This document shows positions 1,050 to 8,033 of a stretch of 38,124 nucleotides of DNA, piece after piece (position 1 is the first letter of the stretch; the number at the start of each line of letters is the position of its first letter). Source of the stretch: Geobacter sp. (GTDB lineage Bacteria > Desulfobacterota > Desulfuromonadia > Geobacterales > Pseudopelobacteraceae); NCBI GenBank assembly GCA_025360785.1, contig JANYBN010000097.1, positions 1 through 38,124 on the forward strand, written 5' to 3'. The position numbers and the translations under genes are program-made. The notes under the pieces are model-generated. The model was not told the DNA's origin and did not search any database. It saw only the letters and a list, made by a program, of their open reading frames with translations.

Positions 1050-1067
1050 TGTGCCATTTGTTGCACA
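1050..1067. promoter_or_regulatory. 18-bp dyad (7-4-7), likely operator of the regulator at 1133
   Basis: TGTGCCA-TTTG-TTGCACA is an interrupted palindrome. It matches the site at 3458-3475 at 13 of 18 positions, giving the shared form TGTGYCA-N4-TKGCACA. It overlaps the -35 box of the predicted promoter of the adjacent regulator gene, which would suit autorepression. Binding is inferred from the dyad form and its duplication either side of a DNA-binding regulator gene. Confidence 0.55.
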
Positions 1068-1089
1068 CTTTACCAATACGGTGTATAGT
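1061..1089 (+). promoter_or_regulatory. Predicted sigma70-type promoter of the Fe-S/hydrogenase-like regulator
   Basis: TTGCAC (1061-1066) and TATAGT (1084-1089) are separated by 17 bp. The start would lie near 1096, about 37 nt ahead of the ATG at 1133. The -35 box overlaps the right half of the dyad at 1050-1067. Confidence 0.5.
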
Positions 1090-1132: not shown

Positions 1133-3436
1133 ATGGAACCTATCGTCACATATAAAGAGCGTTGTCGCCGTTGCTATTCCTGTGTCCGTAGCTGTCCGGT
1201 CAAGGCCATCAAGGTTGACGGGGGCTTTGCGCAGATAATGTATGACCGCTGCATCGGTTGCGGCAACTGCCTGACCTGTCCGCAGAATGCCAAAGTTGTG
1301 GTTGATCGCATGGTCAGAACACAGGAAATGCTTGCGTCAGGTTCCCCGGTAGTAGCGGTGCTCGGCTGTTCATTTCCGGCTTTTTTCCACTCGCTACGTC
1401 CAGGCCAATTGGTGGCCGCCTTGAAAAGCCTCGGTTTCTGCGAAGTTCACGAGGGGGCGTACGGCGCACGCATGATTGCCGACAGTTACAGGGATATGCT
1501 CCGCTCTTCTGATCGAGCGCTCATTTCATCGCACTGTCCTGCGGTTGTGGATCTGATAGAGCGCCATTATCCGGCACTGGTTCCCAATATCATGCCTGTC
1601 GTTTCGCCAATGATTGCCATGGGGCGCTCTATTAAAGGCATACTTGGCGAAGAAACCAGGGTGGTGTATGTCAGCACCTGTGTCGCTGCAAAATTTGAAA
1701 TCCAGGGGGAGGCTTCAGGAGCAATTGATATTGTGCTGACCTACCAGGAGATCGACAAGCTTTTCAAAAACAGAGGCATAACACCTGCCGCCCTGACGGA
1801 AATGTCGTTCGATGGCGTTGATCCGGGTGCCGGGCGGCTTTTTTCACTTACCGGCGGTCCGCTTAAGGTCTTTGATATCCAGCCCGATTTTCAGGATAAT
1901 GAGACCATAAGCGCCGAAGGTGAGGCTCATACGATAGGCATTGTTCGCGACCTGGCTGCCGGCCGAATATCACCGAAATTTGTTGATCTTCGTTTCTGCG
2001 ATGGCGGCTGTGTTGACGGTCCGGCCAGAGATAAAGAGCATAATCATTTTTTCAAGCGCAAGCTGATCGTATGTCACAATAGCGCCAAGCCTCTCTATGA
2101 AACGGCAAGCCACTATCGCACAACGGCACTTCTGCCCGATCTTGTTCGCTCCTACTCAGACAAGTCACAGAAGCAGGCAACTCCCGCAAAGGATGACATC
2201 AAACGCATCCTTCATTCCACCAACAAATTTACGCAAGGGGACGAGCTGAATTGCCGCGCCTGCGGATACAATACCTGCCGCGAACATGCGGTGGCAGTTT
2301 TTCAGGGATTTGCCGACATTGAAATGTGCCTTCCTCACAATATGCAGTTGATTGAGGAAGAGCGCGGGCGTCTGATGTTGAAGTATGAACTGGTTCAGCG
2401 AGAGCTGGATCGGCAGGCTGGGGATGACTTGATCGTCGGCAGCGACCTCGGGATCAGAGATGTGATGGAGTTGATCCACCAGGTAGCTCCTACACCGACA
2501 ACTGTACTGATCAGAGGTGAAACCGGGACCGGCAAGGAGCTGACCGCTCGGGCTATCCATCGCCAAAGCCAGCGAAACGATAAACCGCTCATGACGGTAA
2601 ACTGTACTACGCTGACAGATTCGCTTCTTGAAAGCGAACTGTTCGGCCACAAAAAGGGCTCATTTACCGGGGCAATCGCCGATAAAAAGGGGTTGTTTGA
2701 GGCGGCTAACGGCGGAACTATTTTTCTGGACGAAATCGGTGATATCACCCCTAAATTGCAGGCCGAACTGCTGAGATTGCTGGACCTTGGAGAGGTGCGT
2801 CCCGTAGGAGGACTCGTTGCCAAAAAGGTGGACGTGCGCTTGATCGCGGCCACCAATAAGGATCTGGAACTAGGAGTGCGGGATGGTTGGTTTCGAGAGG
2901 ATCTGTATTATCGTCTGAACGTTTTCAGCATTGAGCTCCCTCCATTGCGGGAGCGCGCTGAATCCGTGCCGGAATTGGCACAGCATTTTCTAGACAAGGC
3001 CCGGAAAAAGCTCAACAAGACTATCGCAGGTATCGAAGACCGGGCTGTCAAGGCCATGCAGTACTATCCCTGGCCCGGGAATATCCGTGAGATGCAGAAT
3101 GTCATCGAACGCTCGGCAGTTCTGGTCAAGGACGGCGTCATCCGGCTGGAAAATCTTCCCACCATTTTTACCGGTACCTACGACTCCTGTCTGGATATTG
3201 ACGTCAATCGCCGCCGGGTTTCGTTCAAGGCCGAGCGCGAGCTGCAGGTTGTTCGCACCGAGAAAAATATTATTGTGCGTTATCTCGAAGAGACCGATGG
3301 GAATGTTGCAAAAGCGGCCCGCCTGGCGAATCTTCCCCGGCGAACTTTTTACCGCCTGCTTGAAAAGCATGGCATAGAAGTCGTTCGTAGTTCTAAACTT
3401 TTTTCCTGCGAATCCCAGCCCTTACAAACAGGATAA
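1133..3436 (+). CDS. Sigma54-dependent activator with ferredoxin and [FeFe]-hydrogenase-like sensor domains
   Basis: 767 aa, start preceded by GGGAG. Domains in order: an 8-Cys ferredoxin (C11, C14, C17, C21; C40, C43, C46, C49, the second set in unusual CxxCxxCxxCP spacing); a [FeFe]-hydrogenase large-subunit-like domain (about 70-340) keeping one Cys at the L1 position (C135 in SSHCPAVV), one at L2 (C183 in STCVAAKFE) and the C-x3-C of L3 (C289, C293 in FCDGGC); a Fes-type four-Cys motif (C374, C377, C382, C399); a sigma54 AAA+ domain (Walker A GETGTGKE 462-469, GSFTGA 509-514, Walker B GGTIFLDE); and a Fis-type HTH near the C terminus. By eye against catalytic hydrogenases, the proton-transfer Cys is His134 and the L2 Met and Lys are Ser181 and Ala186. 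That suggests a redox or H2 sensor rather than an enzyme, which is an inference. The GSFTGA loop and HTH indicate a working activator. Ligand and targets are unknown apart from the candidate site at 3458. Confidence 0.9.
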   Translation: MEPIVTYKERCRRCYSCVRSCPVKAIKVDGGFAQIMYDRCIGCGNCLTCPQNAKVVVDRMVRTQEMLASGSPVVAVLGCSFPAFFHSLRPGQLVAALKSLGFCEVHEGAYGARMIADSYRDMLRSSDRALISSHCPAVVDLIERHYPALVPNIMPVVSPMIAMGRSIKGILGEETRVVYVSTCVAAKFEIQGEASGAIDIVLTYQEIDKLFKNRGITPAALTEMSFDGVDPGAGRLFSLTGGPLKVFDIQPDFQDNETISAEGEAHTIGIVRDLAAGRISPKFVDLRFCDGGCVDGPARDKEHNHFFKRKLIVCHNSAKPLYETASHYRTTALLPDLVRSYSDKSQKQATPAKDDIKRILHSTNKFTQGDELNCRACGYNTCREHAVAVFQGFADIEMCLPHNMQLIEEERGRLMLKYELVQRELDRQAGDDLIVGSDLGIRDVMELIHQVAPTPTTVLIRGETGTGKELTARAIHRQSQRNDKPLMTVNCTTLTDSLLESELFGHKKGSFTGAIADKKGLFEAANGGTIFLDEIGDITPKLQAELLRLLDLGEVRPVGGLVAKKVDVRLIAATNKDLELGVRDGWFREDLYYRLNVFSIELPPLRERAESVPELAQHFLDKARKKLNKTIAGIEDRAVKAMQYYPWPGNIREMQNVIERSAVLVKDGVIRLENLPTIFTGTYDSCLDIDVNRRRVSFKAERELQVVRTEKNIIVRYLEETDGNVAKAARLANLPRRTFYRLLEKHGIEVVRSSKLFSCESQPLQTG

Positions 3437-3457
3437 GTGTATACTTTTGACCACCAG

Positions 3458-3475
3458 TGTGTCATAGTTGGCACA
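3458..3475. promoter_or_regulatory. 18-bp dyad (7-4-7), candidate upstream activating sequence
   Basis: TGTGTCA-TAGT-TGGCACA has near-perfect 7-bp arms and resembles the dyad at 1050-1067. Its centre lies about 120 bp upstream of the start predicted for the sigma54 promoter at 3559-3574, a normal distance for an enhancer-type site. The activator encoded immediately upstream is the obvious candidate ligand. Confidence 0.55.
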
Positions 3476-3558
3476 TATTTAAACGCTTCGAACAATAGGT
3501 CAAAAACAGTCTAGTTGCAACGACCGGTATTTGCAGGTTATTTTATGATTATTGGCAG

Positions 3559-3574
3559 TTGGCATGATATTAGC
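3559..3574 (+). promoter_or_regulatory. Predicted sigma54 (-24/-12) promoter for the ribbon-helix-helix gene
   Basis: TTGGCATGATATTAGC carries the -24 GG and -12 GC with the required spacing (GG 3561-3562, GC 3573-3574) and matches the TTGGCACG-N4-TTGC consensus except for two positions. The start would be near 3586, leaving a leader of about 63 nt before the ATG at 3649. Confidence 0.6.
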
Positions 3575-3648
3575 TAGTGTATACAGCATATCCGTTAATA
3601 CGAACTTGATGGAAAACCATAAAATTAAAAACCGGAAGGAGTAATACC

Positions 3649-3834
3649 ATGGGAAGAATGAGAGAAAATCCGCGCTACAATGTAATTTCGATGAGGGTGA
3701 GTGACGAAGAACGTGATCACCTGGAAAACCTGATGAAAACCACACATAAGAGCATATCTGATATCATGCGCGAGGCTATGGAGTATTTTTCTGCACACTA
3801 TGATCAGGACGAGCTGAACAGAAAAGCCGCATAG
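3649..3834 (+). CDS. Small ribbon-helix-helix (CopG/Arc-like) protein
   Basis: 61 aa with a strong ribosome site (GGAAGGAG, 8 nt before the ATG). YNVISMRVSDEERDHLENLM (residues 9-28) has the look of a ribbon-helix-helix fold: a short basic beta strand (NVISMRVS) followed by two helices, the second being KSISDIMREAMEYFSAH. These proteins bind DNA as dimers, as repressors or as antitoxin-like factors. No toxin partner follows; a strong terminator closes the unit, so it is monocistronic. With a sigma54 promoter and activator dyad upstream, it looks like a second-tier regulator driven by the hydrogenase-like activator. Its own targets cannot be read from this window. Confidence 0.75.
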   Translation: MGRMRENPRYNVISMRVSDEERDHLENLMKTTHKSISDIMREAMEYFSAHYDQDELNRKAA

Positions 3835-3847
3835 TCACCTTTGGCCA

Positions 3848-3893
3848 TTAAACGCAAAGAGGCGGGGATTATTCCCCGCCTCTTTGCGTTTAA
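3848..3893. terminator. Bidirectional terminator between the ribbon-helix-helix gene and rng
   Basis: Perfect 21-bp arms (3848-3868 and 3873-3893) around a TTAT loop. The stem core is AGAGGCGGGGA / TCCCCGCCTCT, and the outer arm is AT-rich (TTAAACGC / GCGTTTAA), so a U-rich tail is present in either direction. It separates convergent genes. Confidence 0.85.
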
Positions 3894-3945: not shown

Positions 3946-5472
3946 TCAGTTGATCGCGATTTCAAACTGTTCCTGATGAAAACCGGGCTTGGCCCGAACC
4001 GTGATTCTCTTTTTGAATTTCTTTTCCAGCTCTTCAAGCCCACGTCGCTCCTCATCGTAAAGTAGGTCCGCAACCTGAGGATGGACCGTCACCGTCGCTT
4101 TGGTGCCCCGGAGATCAAGCATTTCGCGCCGCAATTCCCGGAATATTTCATGACAGACAGTTATTTTCGACTTGATGTATCCGCGTCCCTCGCAGTAGCT
4201 GCACGGTTCACACATCATGCGGCTGATGTTCTCGCGCACCCGCTTTCTGGTCATTTCGACCAGTCCAAGCTCGGAAATCTTCAGAATATTTGTTTTCGAC
4301 TTATCCGCTTTGAGAGCCTCTTCCAGTGCTCCATAGACCTTTTCCCGGTTGACCTCTTTTTCCATGTCTATGAAGTCAATGATAATGATCCCGCCAATGT
4401 TGCGCAGGCGCAGCTGGTACGCAATTTCCTTGACCGCCTCCAGATTGGTCTTCAGGATCGTATCTTCCAGATTGTGTTTGCCCACAAAACGGCCGGTGTT
4501 GACATCGACGGCGCTTAATGCTTCGGTCTGCTCGATTATAATATAGCCGCCTGACTTGAGCCAGACCTTTCTCCCCAGCGCCCGACTGATCTCAACTTCC
4601 AGTCCGTAATGGTCAAAGATGGGCTCTTCCTCGTCATACAGTTCGATCGTATATTTCATCTTTGAAGCGAAAGTCGAAATGAAATGTACGATCCGGTCAT
4701 AATCGACCTTTGAATCGACCACTATCTTATCAACCTGCTCGGTAACAATGTCCCTGACCACCTTCTGGACAACATCCAGGTCTGAATGCAACAGGGAAGG
4801 GATTGCCGCATTCGCCTGCCGTTTGGATATTTCCTCCCAGAGTGTAGTTAAATACAGCATATCGGCAATCAGGTCTTCCTCACTCTTTCCTTCTGAAACC
4901 GTCCTGACTATGTAGCCGGATCCGGTTTTTTTGAGGCGTTCAACGATCTCCCGCAGCCGCTCGCGCTCCTCCTCGTCCTCGATCCGACGTGAAATTCCGA
5001 TATGATCTACAGTCGGCATATAGACAAGGTGCCGTCCCGGCAGGGAGATGTGAGAGGTTATGCGGGCTCCCTTGGTGCCGAGCGGTTCCTTGGAAATCTG
5101 TACCAATAGTTCCTGCCCTTCCTGCAAAAGATCCTCAATAGGATGAAGCGGCCGGAACTCAGGGCGATCATTGCCCTCCTGTGTCGCAATCGGCTCATAG
5201 TCTTTTTTGCTTCCGGCATACAGCAGTGACTCATACTCCTCGATTGCATCGAACACGTCGGCGACGTAGAGAAACGCTGCCTTCTCCAGGCCGATGTCCA
5301 CAAAAGCAGCCTGCATGCCGGGCAGTACGCGAATGACCCGCCCTTTATAAATATTGCCCACAATTCCCTTTTCTCGGCTACGCTCAATATAGAGTTCGGC
5401 AATGGTGCCGTTCTCAATCAACGCAATGCGGGTTTCGTGGGAAGCGGCGTTTATAACTAATTCAGCTCCCAT
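3946..5472 (-). CDS. rng: Ribonuclease G (RNase E/G family)
   Basis: 508 aa, close to the usual length of RNase G (about 490) and lacking the long C-terminal scaffold of RNase E. It is an endoribonuclease acting on AU-rich single-stranded RNA, in rRNA 5' maturation and mRNA decay. Features: S1 domain near residues 35-130 (GIVGNIYKGRVIRVLPGMQA, with an internal insertion), catalytic DNase I-like region with the metal-binding aspartates in SAVDVNTG and IIIDFIDME, and a zinc-link CEPCSYCEGRG. The ATG is preceded by GGAGA. It lies 83 bp downstream of the TIGR03960-type gene on the same strand, a pairing common in this lineage, and probably shares its transcript. Confidence 0.95.
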   Translation of the reverse strand: MGAELVINAASHETRIALIENGTIAELYIERSREKGIVGNIYKGRVIRVLPGMQAAFVDIGLEKAAFLYVADVFDAIEEYESLLYAGSKKDYEPIATQEGNDRPEFRPLHPIEDLLQEGQELLVQISKEPLGTKGARITSHISLPGRHLVYMPTVDHIGISRRIEDEEERERLREIVERLKKTGSGYIVRTVSEGKSEEDLIADMLYLTTLWEEISKRQANAAIPSLLHSDLDVVQKVVRDIVTEQVDKIVVDSKVDYDRIVHFISTFASKMKYTIELYDEEEPIFDHYGLEVEISRALGRKVWLKSGGYIIIEQTEALSAVDVNTGRFVGKHNLEDTILKTNLEAVKEIAYQLRLRNIGGIIIIDFIDMEKEVNREKVYGALEEALKADKSKTNILKISELGLVEMTRKRVRENISRMMCEPCSYCEGRGYIKSKITVCHEIFRELRREMLDLRGTKATVTVHPQVADLLYDEERRGLEELEKKFKKRITVRAKPGFHQEQFEIAIN

Positions 5473-5555: not shown

Positions 5556-8033
5556 CTAAGGCTCCGGCTTAAAGATTACTTCCAGTTTCTCAACCTGGAT
5601 ATCATCACCTTCAAGCGCCTCGTCACCGGTGATGGCCCTGGTAAACTCGACCGGCTTGCCCCGCCTGGCGACCAGCTCCAGCGTGTTTCTGTCTGCTGAT
5701 AGTGAAACGGTTTCGCTCCTCAAATCGACCGACTTGGTCTGCCCTTTTTTTGTCCGCTGGATGACGAAAGAATCATGTGCCAAAAACTGCACACATTGTT
5801 TCGCTAGCTCTTCCGGTTCAGCTTTAGCAACAGTCATCCGATAGCGGGTGGCATCTATCATGGTTGAGATGGACGGCAGTTTGGCGTCAACTTCCTCTGA
5901 CTCCAGAATCCGCAATCCTTCCGGCAGTACCGCATTAAGACGCTTCAGCACTTCATGGGCAGTGATGCCGGCAACGACAAACATATCCATGTACTCCGCC
6001 TGTGACTCGACCCCTACAGAAGTTGCCGTTCCAAATGAGAAGCGGGGATGCGGATGAAAACCGAGCGAAAACATTATCGGCACATCTCCCCTGCTGACGG
6101 CGCGGGTGAAGACGGTAATCAGCTCAAGATGGCTCAAATACCGCATGACCCCGGTTTTTGAAAATCTGAGCCGCATCCTGGCGGCCAGCGGTTCATCAGT
6201 CGGGATATTCTGTCGTTGGGGAATGGTTGCCTGCGCGGAAATCCGGTTAGTCACCACGGTGAAATCGCAGACACCGCAGGCGCTGCAACTGCCGTCACGA
6301 CAATCCTTAGTCGCTGCTTCTGCCAGGGCTTGCTCACGCTCGGCCAAAAGAAAGTCGCGCGTCACGCCGCAATCAAGGTGATCCCACGGCAGGATTTCAG
6401 TCAGCTCCCGGCGGCGCAAATACCATTCCGGTTCGACAGCACAATCGGCAAAGGCCTGGAGCCAGCGCTCCAGAGAAAAATGTTCGCGCCAGCCGTCAAA
6501 ACGGCAACCCAATTCAACGGCCCGGATCAACACCGGCGCCAGACGGCGGTCGCCGCGGGCAAAGACACCTTCCATGAATGAGAGCGGCGCATCCTGCCAT
6601 TTGAATTTCAGTTTGCGCTTCTTGAGATCGCAGTGGAGCTGATACTGGAGATCTGTGGTTTGCTGAGTGGAGATTTGGGGTTCCCACTGGAACGGTGTAT
6701 GAGCCTTGGGGACGAAGGTGCTGACGGCAACATTGACATCGCCGGAAACGCCGCTTCCTTTGGCCTGGTCCTTGACCTGGCGCGACAGCGTCGAGATCTG
6801 GGCAATATCTTCAGCGGTTTCGCCCGGAAGTCCGATCATGAAGTAGAGCTTGATCAAACGCCAACCGGCTTGGTAGATTGCTGTGGCTCCGGTAATCAGA
6901 TCAGCCTCGGTGATCCCCTTGTTGATGACCCGGCGCATCCGGTCGCTGCCCGCCTCCGGTGCCAGGGTAAAGCCGGTTTTACGTACTTTCTTTATCTCCT
7001 CGATCAGCTCATCCGACAAGCTCCCGACTCGCAGGGATGGGAGCGACACAGCGATCCGGTCTTCGGCGTAGCGAGCCATTAATTCGGTTACCAGCGGAGT
7101 AACGCAGGAATAATCTCCGGTAGAAAGCGAAAGCAGTGATATCTCATCATAGCCGGTAGCTTTGAGCGACTGCTCCACCAGATTGAGAATCGTAGCAGGT
7201 GAGCGCTCACGCAACGGGCGGTAGACGTAGCCGGCCTGGCAGAAACGGCAGCCGCGGGTGCAGCCCCGCGCGATTTCAACAGCTACCCGGTCATGAATAG
7301 TCTTCATAAACGGGATGACAGGTGAATCAGGAAAAGGAGCGGCGTCGAGATCAGCCAGAAAGCGCCGGCGGACCGACGTATAGCCCTGTTTGAGCGTTTT
7401 TATAGCGGTCAGGGTGCCATCGGGAGCGTACTGCGGTTCAAAGAGCGAAGGAATGTAAACCCCTTCGATGGCAGACAGGTGCTCAAGCAGTTGCGCTTTG
7501 TTCTCACCGGTTTTTTTTGCTTCTCGCACCGCCTGGGCAATTTCCAGCACGGCTTCTTCTCCATCCCCCAGCAGCACGGCATCAAAGAAAGGAGCCAGCG
7601 GTTCCGGATTATACGCGCAGGGGCCGCCGGCGATAATCAGTGGAAATGGCTCGCTCCGATCAGTAGCCAGGAGCGGAATGCCGCTCAGGCGGAGCATGGA
7701 GAGTATATTTGTATAAGAGAGCTCGTACTGCAGAGTGAAGCCGACGATGTCGCATTCTGCCAGAGGGGTGGCTGTTTCAAGTGTTGCCAGCGGGACACCT
7801 GCGGCACGCATCTGGGTTTCCATGTCCGGCCAGGGGGCAAAAACACGCTCTGCGGCAAGCCCTTCTACTTCATTCAGGACATGGTACAGAATCTTTAGCC
7901 CCAGATGACTCATACCGACTTCATACACATCCGGGAAGGCAAGGGCAAAGCGCAAATCGGCAGCATCTTTGCGGATGGAGCCCATTTCGCCCCCCATATA
8001 ACGGGCAGGTTTTTCTACAGCGAGAAGATTCAT
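5556..8033 (-). CDS. TIGR03960-type B12-binding-like/radical SAM protein fused to a DUF2344 domain
   Basis: 825 aa. The N-terminal part (about 1-170) resembles the cobalamin-binding-like domain of YgiQ-type proteins. The radical SAM core follows with CTRGCRFCQAG (C258, C262, C265). A linker holds a second Cys set, C578, C583, C586 and C589 (CxxxxCxxCxxC), possibly a further metal or Fe-S site. From about 619 to the end is the DUF2344 'radical SAM-linked' domain (MRLRFSKTGVMRYLSHLE, GFHPHPRFSFG). The reaction is not established. Regular co-occurrence with rng suggests a role in RNA or ribosome maturation, an inference from context. The chosen ATG gives the normal family start (KPARYMGGE), although no clear ribosome site precedes it. 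Confidence 0.88.
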   Translation of the reverse strand: MNLLAVEKPARYMGGEMGSIRKDAADLRFALAFPDVYEVGMSHLGLKILYHVLNEVEGLAAERVFAPWPDMETQMRAAGVPLATLETATPLAECDIVGFTLQYELSYTNILSMLRLSGIPLLATDRSEPFPLIIAGGPCAYNPEPLAPFFDAVLLGDGEEAVLEIAQAVREAKKTGENKAQLLEHLSAIEGVYIPSLFEPQYAPDGTLTAIKTLKQGYTSVRRRFLADLDAAPFPDSPVIPFMKTIHDRVAVEIARGCTRGCRFCQAGYVYRPLRERSPATILNLVEQSLKATGYDEISLLSLSTGDYSCVTPLVTELMARYAEDRIAVSLPSLRVGSLSDELIEEIKKVRKTGFTLAPEAGSDRMRRVINKGITEADLITGATAIYQAGWRLIKLYFMIGLPGETAEDIAQISTLSRQVKDQAKGSGVSGDVNVAVSTFVPKAHTPFQWEPQISTQQTTDLQYQLHCDLKKRKLKFKWQDAPLSFMEGVFARGDRRLAPVLIRAVELGCRFDGWREHFSLERWLQAFADCAVEPEWYLRRRELTEILPWDHLDCGVTRDFLLAEREQALAEAATKDCRDGSCSACGVCDFTVVTNRISAQATIPQRQNIPTDEPLAARMRLRFSKTGVMRYLSHLELITVFTRAVSRGDVPIMFSLGFHPHPRFSFGTATSVGVESQAEYMDMFVVAGITAHEVLKRLNAVLPEGLRILESEEVDAKLPSISTMIDATRYRMTVAKAEPEELAKQCVQFLAHDSFVIQRTKKGQTKSVDLRSETVSLSADRNTLELVARRGKPVEFTRAITGDEALEGDDIQVEKLEVIFKPEP

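Follow-up and report, generated by a model that had tools for sequence, protein, structure and literature searches.

A hydrogenase-like domain fused to a sigma54 activator in Geobacter: a probable iron-sulfur redox switch predicted to act on hgtR

What does a hydrogenase-like domain sense when it is fused directly to a transcription activator, and which gene does it control? We address this question for a protein encoded in a 38,124-nt contig of Geobacter sp. (GenBank assembly GCA_025360785.1, JANYBN010000097.1; the whole stretch is referred to as the window), where an open reading frame (ORF) at 1133–3436 on the plus strand specifies 767 amino acids. An earlier note on this DNA had described a hydrogenase-like H-cluster domain joined straight to a sigma54 activator and had read the protein, hereafter the sensor, as a one-component, kinase-free device that converts redox state or H2 into transcription. 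The fusion itself is borne out by the open ORF and by a Pfam scan, and both the architecture and the hydrogen-linked character of the likely targets fit a one-component sensor; the H-cluster part of the proposal is not supported. Our analysis points instead to an iron-sulfur redox switch that probably activates the sigma54 promoter of the neighbouring gene hgtR.

In the N-terminal half of the protein, Pfam places Fer4_10 at residues 8–47, Fe_hyd_lg_C (PF02906, the H-domain) at residues 73–297 with 151.6 bits against a cut-off of 22.1, and an FeS domain at residues 372–401. On the plus strand of the window these correspond to two Fer4 motifs (1154–1291; C11, C14, C17, C21 and C40, C43, C46, C49), the H-domain (1349–2023) and a Cx2Cx4Cx16C motif (2246–2335; C374, C377, C382, C399). 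The C-terminal half comprises Sigma54_activat at residues 434–601 (222.5 bits) and an AAA lid at residues 606–680 (together 2432–3172), followed by a Fis-type helix-turn-helix (HTH) domain, HTH_8, at residues 709–745 (3257–3367). A linker helix of residues 403–430 (2339–2422), predicted with low confidence (pLDDT <50), would connect the FeS domain to the AAA+ domain. The sensor has the Sigma54_activat AAA+ domain, the Walker motifs (Walker A GETGTGKE; FLDEIG), the GAFTGA-type loop (GSFTGA, residues 509–514, 2657–2674) and the C-terminal HTH expected of a bacterial enhancer-binding protein (bEBP), so that the intact activator half and the ferredoxin and FeS cysteine sets described earlier all stand. 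At E 0.1, Pfam detected neither a PAS nor a HisKA domain; the JGI source names of some homologs read 'with PAS, ATPase and Fis domain', with which Pfam disagrees for the window protein.

The cysteines C135, C183, C289 and C293 fall on the H-cluster ligand positions in phmmer alignments to solved [FeFe] hydrogenases. The same alignments uphold three second-sphere changes that had been called by eye: H134 aligns with the proton-transfer Cys, S181 with the Met of the MPC motif and A186 with the first Lys of AKK. R287, which aligns with M497 of the hydrogenase CpI, is a fourth altered position beyond these three. We take the four positions to be C299, M353, K358 and M497 in CpI numbering. The sensor thus has the four H-cluster cysteines of a group A catalytic enzyme and, at C299, M353, K358 and M497, carries H134, S181, A186 and R287 in place of the catalytic residues. 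Positions 299, 353 and 497 are also named in PMC10055695.

These features are family-wide. An inspection of 156 family sequences, 150 of them distinct, shows every cysteine of the second Fer4 motif, the H-domain and the FeS domain conserved (156/156), while one gap lowers the count for the first Fer4 motif to 155/156; H134 and R287 are invariant (156/156 each), S181 occurs in 155/156, and position 186 is A in 147, G in 8, S in 1 and K in none. The CxxCxxCxxCP spacing of the second Fer4 motif, previously called unusual, is real and turns out to be ordinary in its own branch, with 136/156 sequences and 45/80 named loci showing it; CxxCxxCxxxCP is the form in more distant genera and in the paralog described below (17/156 sequences, 27/80 loci), and 3/156 sequences and 8/80 loci were left unparsed.

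Of 58 related genomes, 52 carry the sensor, 51 of them as an intact gene, and six do not (G008, G051 and four genomes of family f2). Its named relatives, a listing of 80 of 145, come from Geobacterales and related metagenome-assembled genomes. In 46 of the 52 carriers, including its own genome, it is the only PF02906 protein; the other six (G002, G012, G015, G020, G028, G032) have a second copy or part, ~55–60% identical. The sensor of G055, a single-contig genome (G055:C1:4120803-4123045, L081), and the paralog of G020 (G020:C829:12521-14771) are both broken into two frames, through either sequencing error or decay.

The [2Fe] subcluster of an H-cluster is made by maturases. HydG was over cut-off in none of the 58 related genomes and gave no match at E 0.001 in the sensor's own genome, which is 99.97% complete; sub-threshold HydG-like matches of 196–209 bits (cut-off 312) occur in G032, G039, G042 and G052. 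HydF was likewise over cut-off in 0/58 genomes, the best match reaching 90.8 bits against 325.55 and belonging to generic GTPases. Among 14 control genomes, one was over cut-off for HydG and one, Thermotoga maritima, for HydF. The HydEFG set of group A enzymes is thus not found as far as HydF and HydG are concerned (HydE was not searched), and the [2Fe] subcluster could therefore not be made by the known route. PF02906 is present in 40 of 148 genomes sampled from the phylum, with matches >240 bits in 18 and <200 bits throughout the other 22. HydF is present at E 1e-60 in 17 of the 18 strong genomes (16 over cut-off, G138 just under; G067 has none) and in 0 of the 22 genomes with only weaker matches, which include the sensor carriers G000, G005 and G038. 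Two genomes of this weak set, G141 and G188, hold 819- and 781-aa frames that look sensor-like.

The residues around the [2Fe] position were compared in other PF02906 proteins, leaving out one duplicate and one non-H-domain row. Arg occupies the M497 position in 9 of 18 non-sensor proteins from HydF-negative genomes and in 0 of 25 proteins from HydF-positive genomes. The nine are 424–532 aa long (L292, L293, L294, L299, L300, L301, L303, L305, L306), and domain scans of L292 and L299 show Fer4, H-domain and FeS domain only; they may belong to a broader group of H-domain proteins that do without maturases. Lys at the K358 position is kept in HydS-like proteins of HydF-positive genomes (L259, L262, L290, L291), of which L290 is a kinase and L291 has PAS.

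A true H-cluster sensor, whose [2Fe] unit would come from unrecognised maturases or be scavenged and which would pass H2 sensing directly to sigma54, is in our judgement very unlikely. The four H-cluster cysteines are invariant, the likely targets of sensor and paralog are hydrogen-linked, and TmHydS and TamHydS are reported to take up [2Fe] despite altered C299, M353 or M497 positions (PMC10055695, PMC8163306). Against this stand the missing HydF and HydG, the family-wide loss of Lys at K358 and replacement of Met by Arg at M497, beside the [2Fe] unit, and the fact that the own genome has no other PF02906 protein. We consider an H-cluster unlikely, contrary to the earlier note; very probably the module carries [4Fe-4S] clusters only, without a [2Fe] subcluster.

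Where does such a module come from? In a tree of 50 tips (without TmHydS; four rows omitted, namely a duplicate, a non-H-domain row and two incomplete proteins), the sensors form a group with three proteins from HydF-negative genomes, and this group falls within a HydS-like clade (support 0.81 at both nodes). These three (L287, 497-2608; L288; L289, 1465-3525) are PF02906 proteins of 687–704 aa without Lys at the K358 position, and domain scans of L287 and L289 give Fer4-H-FeS histidine kinases. The sensor module is probably derived from HydS-type sensors, and its most economical history would be an H-cluster sensor lineage that lost its [2Fe] site and swapped its output.

The gene most likely to be controlled lies immediately downstream. 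Just past the sensor stop codon, a dyad GTGTGTCATAGTTGGCACAT at 3457–3476 is a predicted upstream activating sequence (UAS), followed 103 bp after its start by a predicted sigma54 promoter TGGCATGATATTAGCT at 3560–3575, a Shine-Dalgarno-like GGAAGGAG at 3634–3641 and a gene for a 61-aa ribbon-helix-helix protein, apparently of the HgtR family, at 3649–3834, all three on the plus strand. A long, terminator-like inverted repeat follows at 3850–3891, on which the next gene (3946–5472) converges. The dyad scores 22.3 with a symmetric profile trained on 44 sites upstream of sensor and paralog genes; no hgtR site was used for training. This small gene closely follows the sensor in 103 of 121 loci, and 82 spacers were left after removal of identical ones. 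All 82 contain a dyad scoring at least 9 (77 of these at least 14) and a sigma54 promoter scoring at least 20, so that the predicted promoter and UAS of a bEBP target are found in every distinct spacer. The distance from dyad to promoter is 102–118 bp in 77/82 and −9, 133, 133, 142 and 546 bp in the others. As background, dyad- and sigma54-level scores occur at 139 and 146 of 706,790 positions in 40 neighbourhood loci, true sites included. The 18 loci without an adjoining small gene comprise four paralog loci fetched twice (8), three deep lineages (3), one genome counted twice with the gene ~10 kb away (2), and loci that end ≤1.6 kb from the sensor (5).

The 61-aa ORF matches ribbon-helix-helix models just below cut-off. 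A 61-aa relative named hgtR by its source (P0275) shares 82% identity with the copy of Geobacter sp. AOG1, which in turn is 66% identical to the window protein; most other named homologs are called ribbon-helix-helix or hypothetical. By this comparison, made through the source-named relative, the window gene appears HgtR-like. In Geobacter sulfurreducens, GSU3364 is reported as HgtR, hydrogen-induced and a repressor of gltA, atpG and nuoA (PMC7894505, PMC7726332, citing Ueki and Lovley 2010). An enhancer-binding-protein gene upstream of GSU3364 and a predicted dependence of GSU3364 on RpoN are also reported (Leang et al.; PMC2725144); both an upstream bEBP gene and a predicted RpoN promoter are present at the window hgtR. 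The sensor appears to activate the adjacent hgtR through the predicted UAS.

Genomes in which sensor and target are separated or the sensor is missing serve as natural tests. Sensor and hgtR are not adjacent in G004, G014 and G034, and they are on different contigs in G018 and G022 (probably through contig breaks, since both contigs end nearby); the dyad and sigma54 promoter stay at hgtR in all five. G020 has no upstream sequence and was not counted. In G004 (L278, G004:C152:52500-61500), the distance between the two genes is ~10 kb, and there is another dyad farther upstream. In the sensor-less genomes G037, G043, G045 and G051, the hgtR-like gene keeps a sigma54 promoter scoring 22, and no dyad scoring at least 9 was found within 350 bp of it (0/4). 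The remaining sensor-less genomes are G008, with only a 49% hgtR relative that has the promoter and lacks the dyad, and G040, with no hgtR match. The dyad is thus tied to the presence of the sensor, a pattern that bears on a further alternative: that dyad and promoter are those of a different regulator, with no control of hgtR by the sensor and an association due to neighbourhood. The own genome encodes several other sigma54 activators, and the promoter outlives the sensor. On the other side, the dyads at the sensor, hgtR and the hydrogenase cluster of the paralog are alike and are gone without the sensor (4/4), and sensor and paralog have the HTH recognition helix region PRR-T/S-FYRL in common. 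We regard this alternative as highly improbable.

A dyad of the same TGTGCCA-N4-TTGCACA type, ATGTGCCATTTGTTGCACAC at 1049–1068, precedes the sensor gene itself and is its predicted operator or UAS. A predicted sigma70 promoter, TTGCAC-N17-TATAGT (1061–1089, plus strand), has its −35 box within this dyad. Sites with at least 9 of 12 consensus letters lie upstream of 40/41 sensor and paralog genes, and of 95 distinct upstream regions, 90 have a profile score of at least 10. A −10-like hexamer (at least 4/6) follows 16–18 bp past the half-site in 68 of these 90 regions, in 62 of them at 17 bp, vs 12–27 of 90 at six displaced control offsets. The dyad overlies the −35 box of a sigma70 promoter and therefore suggests negative autoregulation, in which the sensor would repress its own gene.

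Does the dyad mark further targets? The exact TGTGC-N8-GCACA occurs at four sites in the own genome: at the sensor, within a radical-SAM gene and at two further places (C145, C191), the latter two regions having no profile score of at least 9. Relaxing the pattern to TGTGNCANNNNTGNCACA and allowing one mismatch yielded 13 sites, against 1 in the control; of the 13, two are intergenic and score >20 (sensor and hgtR), one is intergenic at 9.9 and ten lie in ORFs (best 16.8); this pattern misses the radical-SAM site, which has two mismatches, and other real sites may escape it too. A search with two mismatches gave 31 matches vs 16 in the control, listed in part. Further targets in the own genome are not supported, the sites of sensor and hgtR being the only intergenic ones >20 with the one-mismatch pattern. 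The radical-SAM dyads lie 275–382 bp upstream of rng, and a site of at least 9 within 450 bp is found in 19/20 loci of the genus; they lie in coding sequence, mostly without a sigma54 promoter of at least 18 nearby, and may reflect coding conservation or a site of other use.

Three deep lineages lack hgtR behind the sensor gene and have dyads (profile 11–20) with a near-perfect sigma54 promoter there (L242, ~6046-6170; L250, ~6422-6550; L252, ~6499-6620). If transcription begins 12 nt past the −12 GC, the predicted transcript is 89–101 nt long, with a strong hairpin whose loop contains CUCUCCCC and a T run at its end, and is possibly a sigma54-driven small RNA. A comparison with Rfam gave nothing over cut-off; one match of 26.1 bits (cut-off 43) was taken as chance.

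What signal, then, would the module report? The paralog is divergent from a [NiFe]-hydrogenase operon in G012, G015, G028 and G032 (large subunit by PF00374; Tat-type small subunit and cytochrome b named by eye), with dyads and a sigma54 promoter scoring 21–22 in the intergenic region. In G002 and G020, which are outside the training set, a large-subunit gene is likewise divergent, with dyads of 15–25 and a promoter of 22–23. Paralog, dyad and sigma54 promoter therefore face a [NiFe]-hydrogenase cluster in 6/6 genomes. Control of hydrogenase operons in trans by the main sensor was rejected as far as the dyad profile reaches: across 40 scanned loci, mostly hydrogenase regions without a paralog, dyads of at least 14 occur only in the paralog regions L156 and L157, and the two large-subunit regions of the own genome that were scanned (L136, L137) have no dyad of at least 9. 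The predicted targets are hydrogen-linked, and some carriers lack a strong [NiFe] hydrogenase (see below); we therefore prefer a general redox signal, which H2 oxidation could raise, and thus perhaps H2 indirectly, over H2 itself.

Two other signals have to be weighed. A sensor of cluster occupancy, oxygen or iron status, in which the supply of or damage to Fe-S clusters rather than electron load would control the activator, is possible if unlikely: sixteen conserved cysteines in four cluster sites, together with the reported rise of hgtR under cobalt stress (PMC7726332), would suit it, while a paralog that faces a hydrogenase cluster and an hgtR reported as hydrogen-induced indicate electron-donor state, and HydS-like sensors elsewhere have this module joined to kinases or PAS. 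Quite improbable in our view is a stripped hydrogenase fold that serves as a ligand or gas sensor, where the vacated pocket, with His134 and Arg287 as invariant lining next to a single [4Fe-4S] cluster, would bind a small molecule (CO, sulfide, a hydride carrier or the like) and gate sigma54 at hgtR in Geobacterales and at the small RNA in deeper Desulfuromonadaceae-type lineages.

Taken together, we consider it probable that the protein is a one-component iron-sulfur redox switch that activates the sigma54 promoter of hgtR and limits itself. Its N-terminal half (two Fer4 clusters, H-domain, C-terminal FeS cluster), descended from HydS-type sensory hydrogenases, would be reduced as low-potential electrons build up, either through H2 oxidation by [NiFe] hydrogenases or through acceptor shortage. 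Reduction of the cluster chain may shift the helix between FeS and AAA+ domains and thereby render the AAA+ ring competent. Bound to the TGTGCCA-N4-TTGCACA-type dyad ~105 bp upstream, the sensor would open the sigma54 promoter of hgtR, HgtR would repress citrate-cycle and respiratory genes, and the sensor over its own −35 box would limit its own synthesis.

Several points weigh against this reading. (i) The sensor-less genomes keep the hgtR sigma54 promoter without sensor or dyad (L274, L275, L276, L277), therefore another sigma54 activator must serve these hgtR-like genes and can serve hgtR. (ii) A third dyad with a profile score of 19.6 lies inside the radical-SAM gene at 5775–5794 without a sigma54 promoter, and a dyad alone is therefore no proof of a target. 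(iii) The carriers G013, G027 and G046 lack a strong [NiFe] large subunit and keep both sensor and hgtR; therefore H2 cannot be the only signal. (iv) HgtR is reported as undetected in the proteomics of PMC7894505, and the bEBP gene beside GSU3364 is, by reported gene order, a putative ortholog of the sensor gene. (v) Lys at the K358 position is kept in 12/18 HydF-negative non-sensor proteins, including the kinase-fused HydS-like protein of G109, and one HydF-positive genome has Arg there; K358 loss was rejected as a stand-alone marker of maturase-free proteins, which Arg at the M497 position separates better. (vi) Activation is predicted to follow reduction; oxidation could activate instead.

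Apart from hgtR, the genes next to the sensor vary between genera, with rng and the radical-SAM gene in its own genus and cysS and a transglutaminase-like gene in several other genera; no conserved operon partner is apparent. At positions 1–150 of the window, a plus-strand sigma54 AAA+ piece directly adjoins the 5′ part of a sigma54 activator gene on the minus strand, whose frame is open from ~900 towards 1. This arrangement is perhaps an inversion or a fold-back at the contig end, a possible assembly artefact.

The activator of HgtR is unnamed in the literature within reach, and our analysis points to a specific gene, binding site and promoter, so that the missing step from electron donor to the control of central metabolism becomes directly testable. 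The widespread retention of H-like domains without HydF and HydG also calls for caution in annotating hydrogenases or H2 sensors.

How does this protein compare with known systems? Nar1/NARF-type proteins, eukaryotic cluster-assembly factors and not transcription activators, are thought to hold a [4Fe-4S] cluster without [2Fe] in their H-domain, a resemblance to the sensor in general terms. On the side of the target, HgtR (GSU3364) of Geobacter sulfurreducens is the likely counterpart, by way of a relative named hgtR and of reported gene order. The combination of Fer4, Fe_hyd_lg_C and FeS with sigma54 activators is already in print for Clostridiales, where these are listed among regulatory domains (PMC6615313); those activators belong to another lineage, were compared by description, and appear in the part of the source considered without assigned target or mechanism. 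We met no link of this architecture to hgtR, the dyad or maturase-free status in the literature searched, which covers few subscription papers. With group D (M2e) TamHydS the sensor has in common the Cx2Cx4Cx16C C-terminal motif and Ser/Thr in place of M353 (PMC8163306); TamHydS is an active protein that accepts a synthetic [2Fe] site, whereas the sensor has other pocket residues and its genomes lack HydF and HydG. A further resemblance is to group C TmHydS and the HydS-like histidine kinases, with which the sensor shares the Fer4 pair, H-domain and C-terminal FeS domain in this order, the altered C299, M353 and M497 positions and, for the HydS-like clade, its place in the tree. It differs from group C HydS in having lost Lys at K358, in the absence of HydF and HydG over cut-off, and in its output, which by Pfam is a sigma54 AAA+ domain with HTH instead of PAS and kinase.

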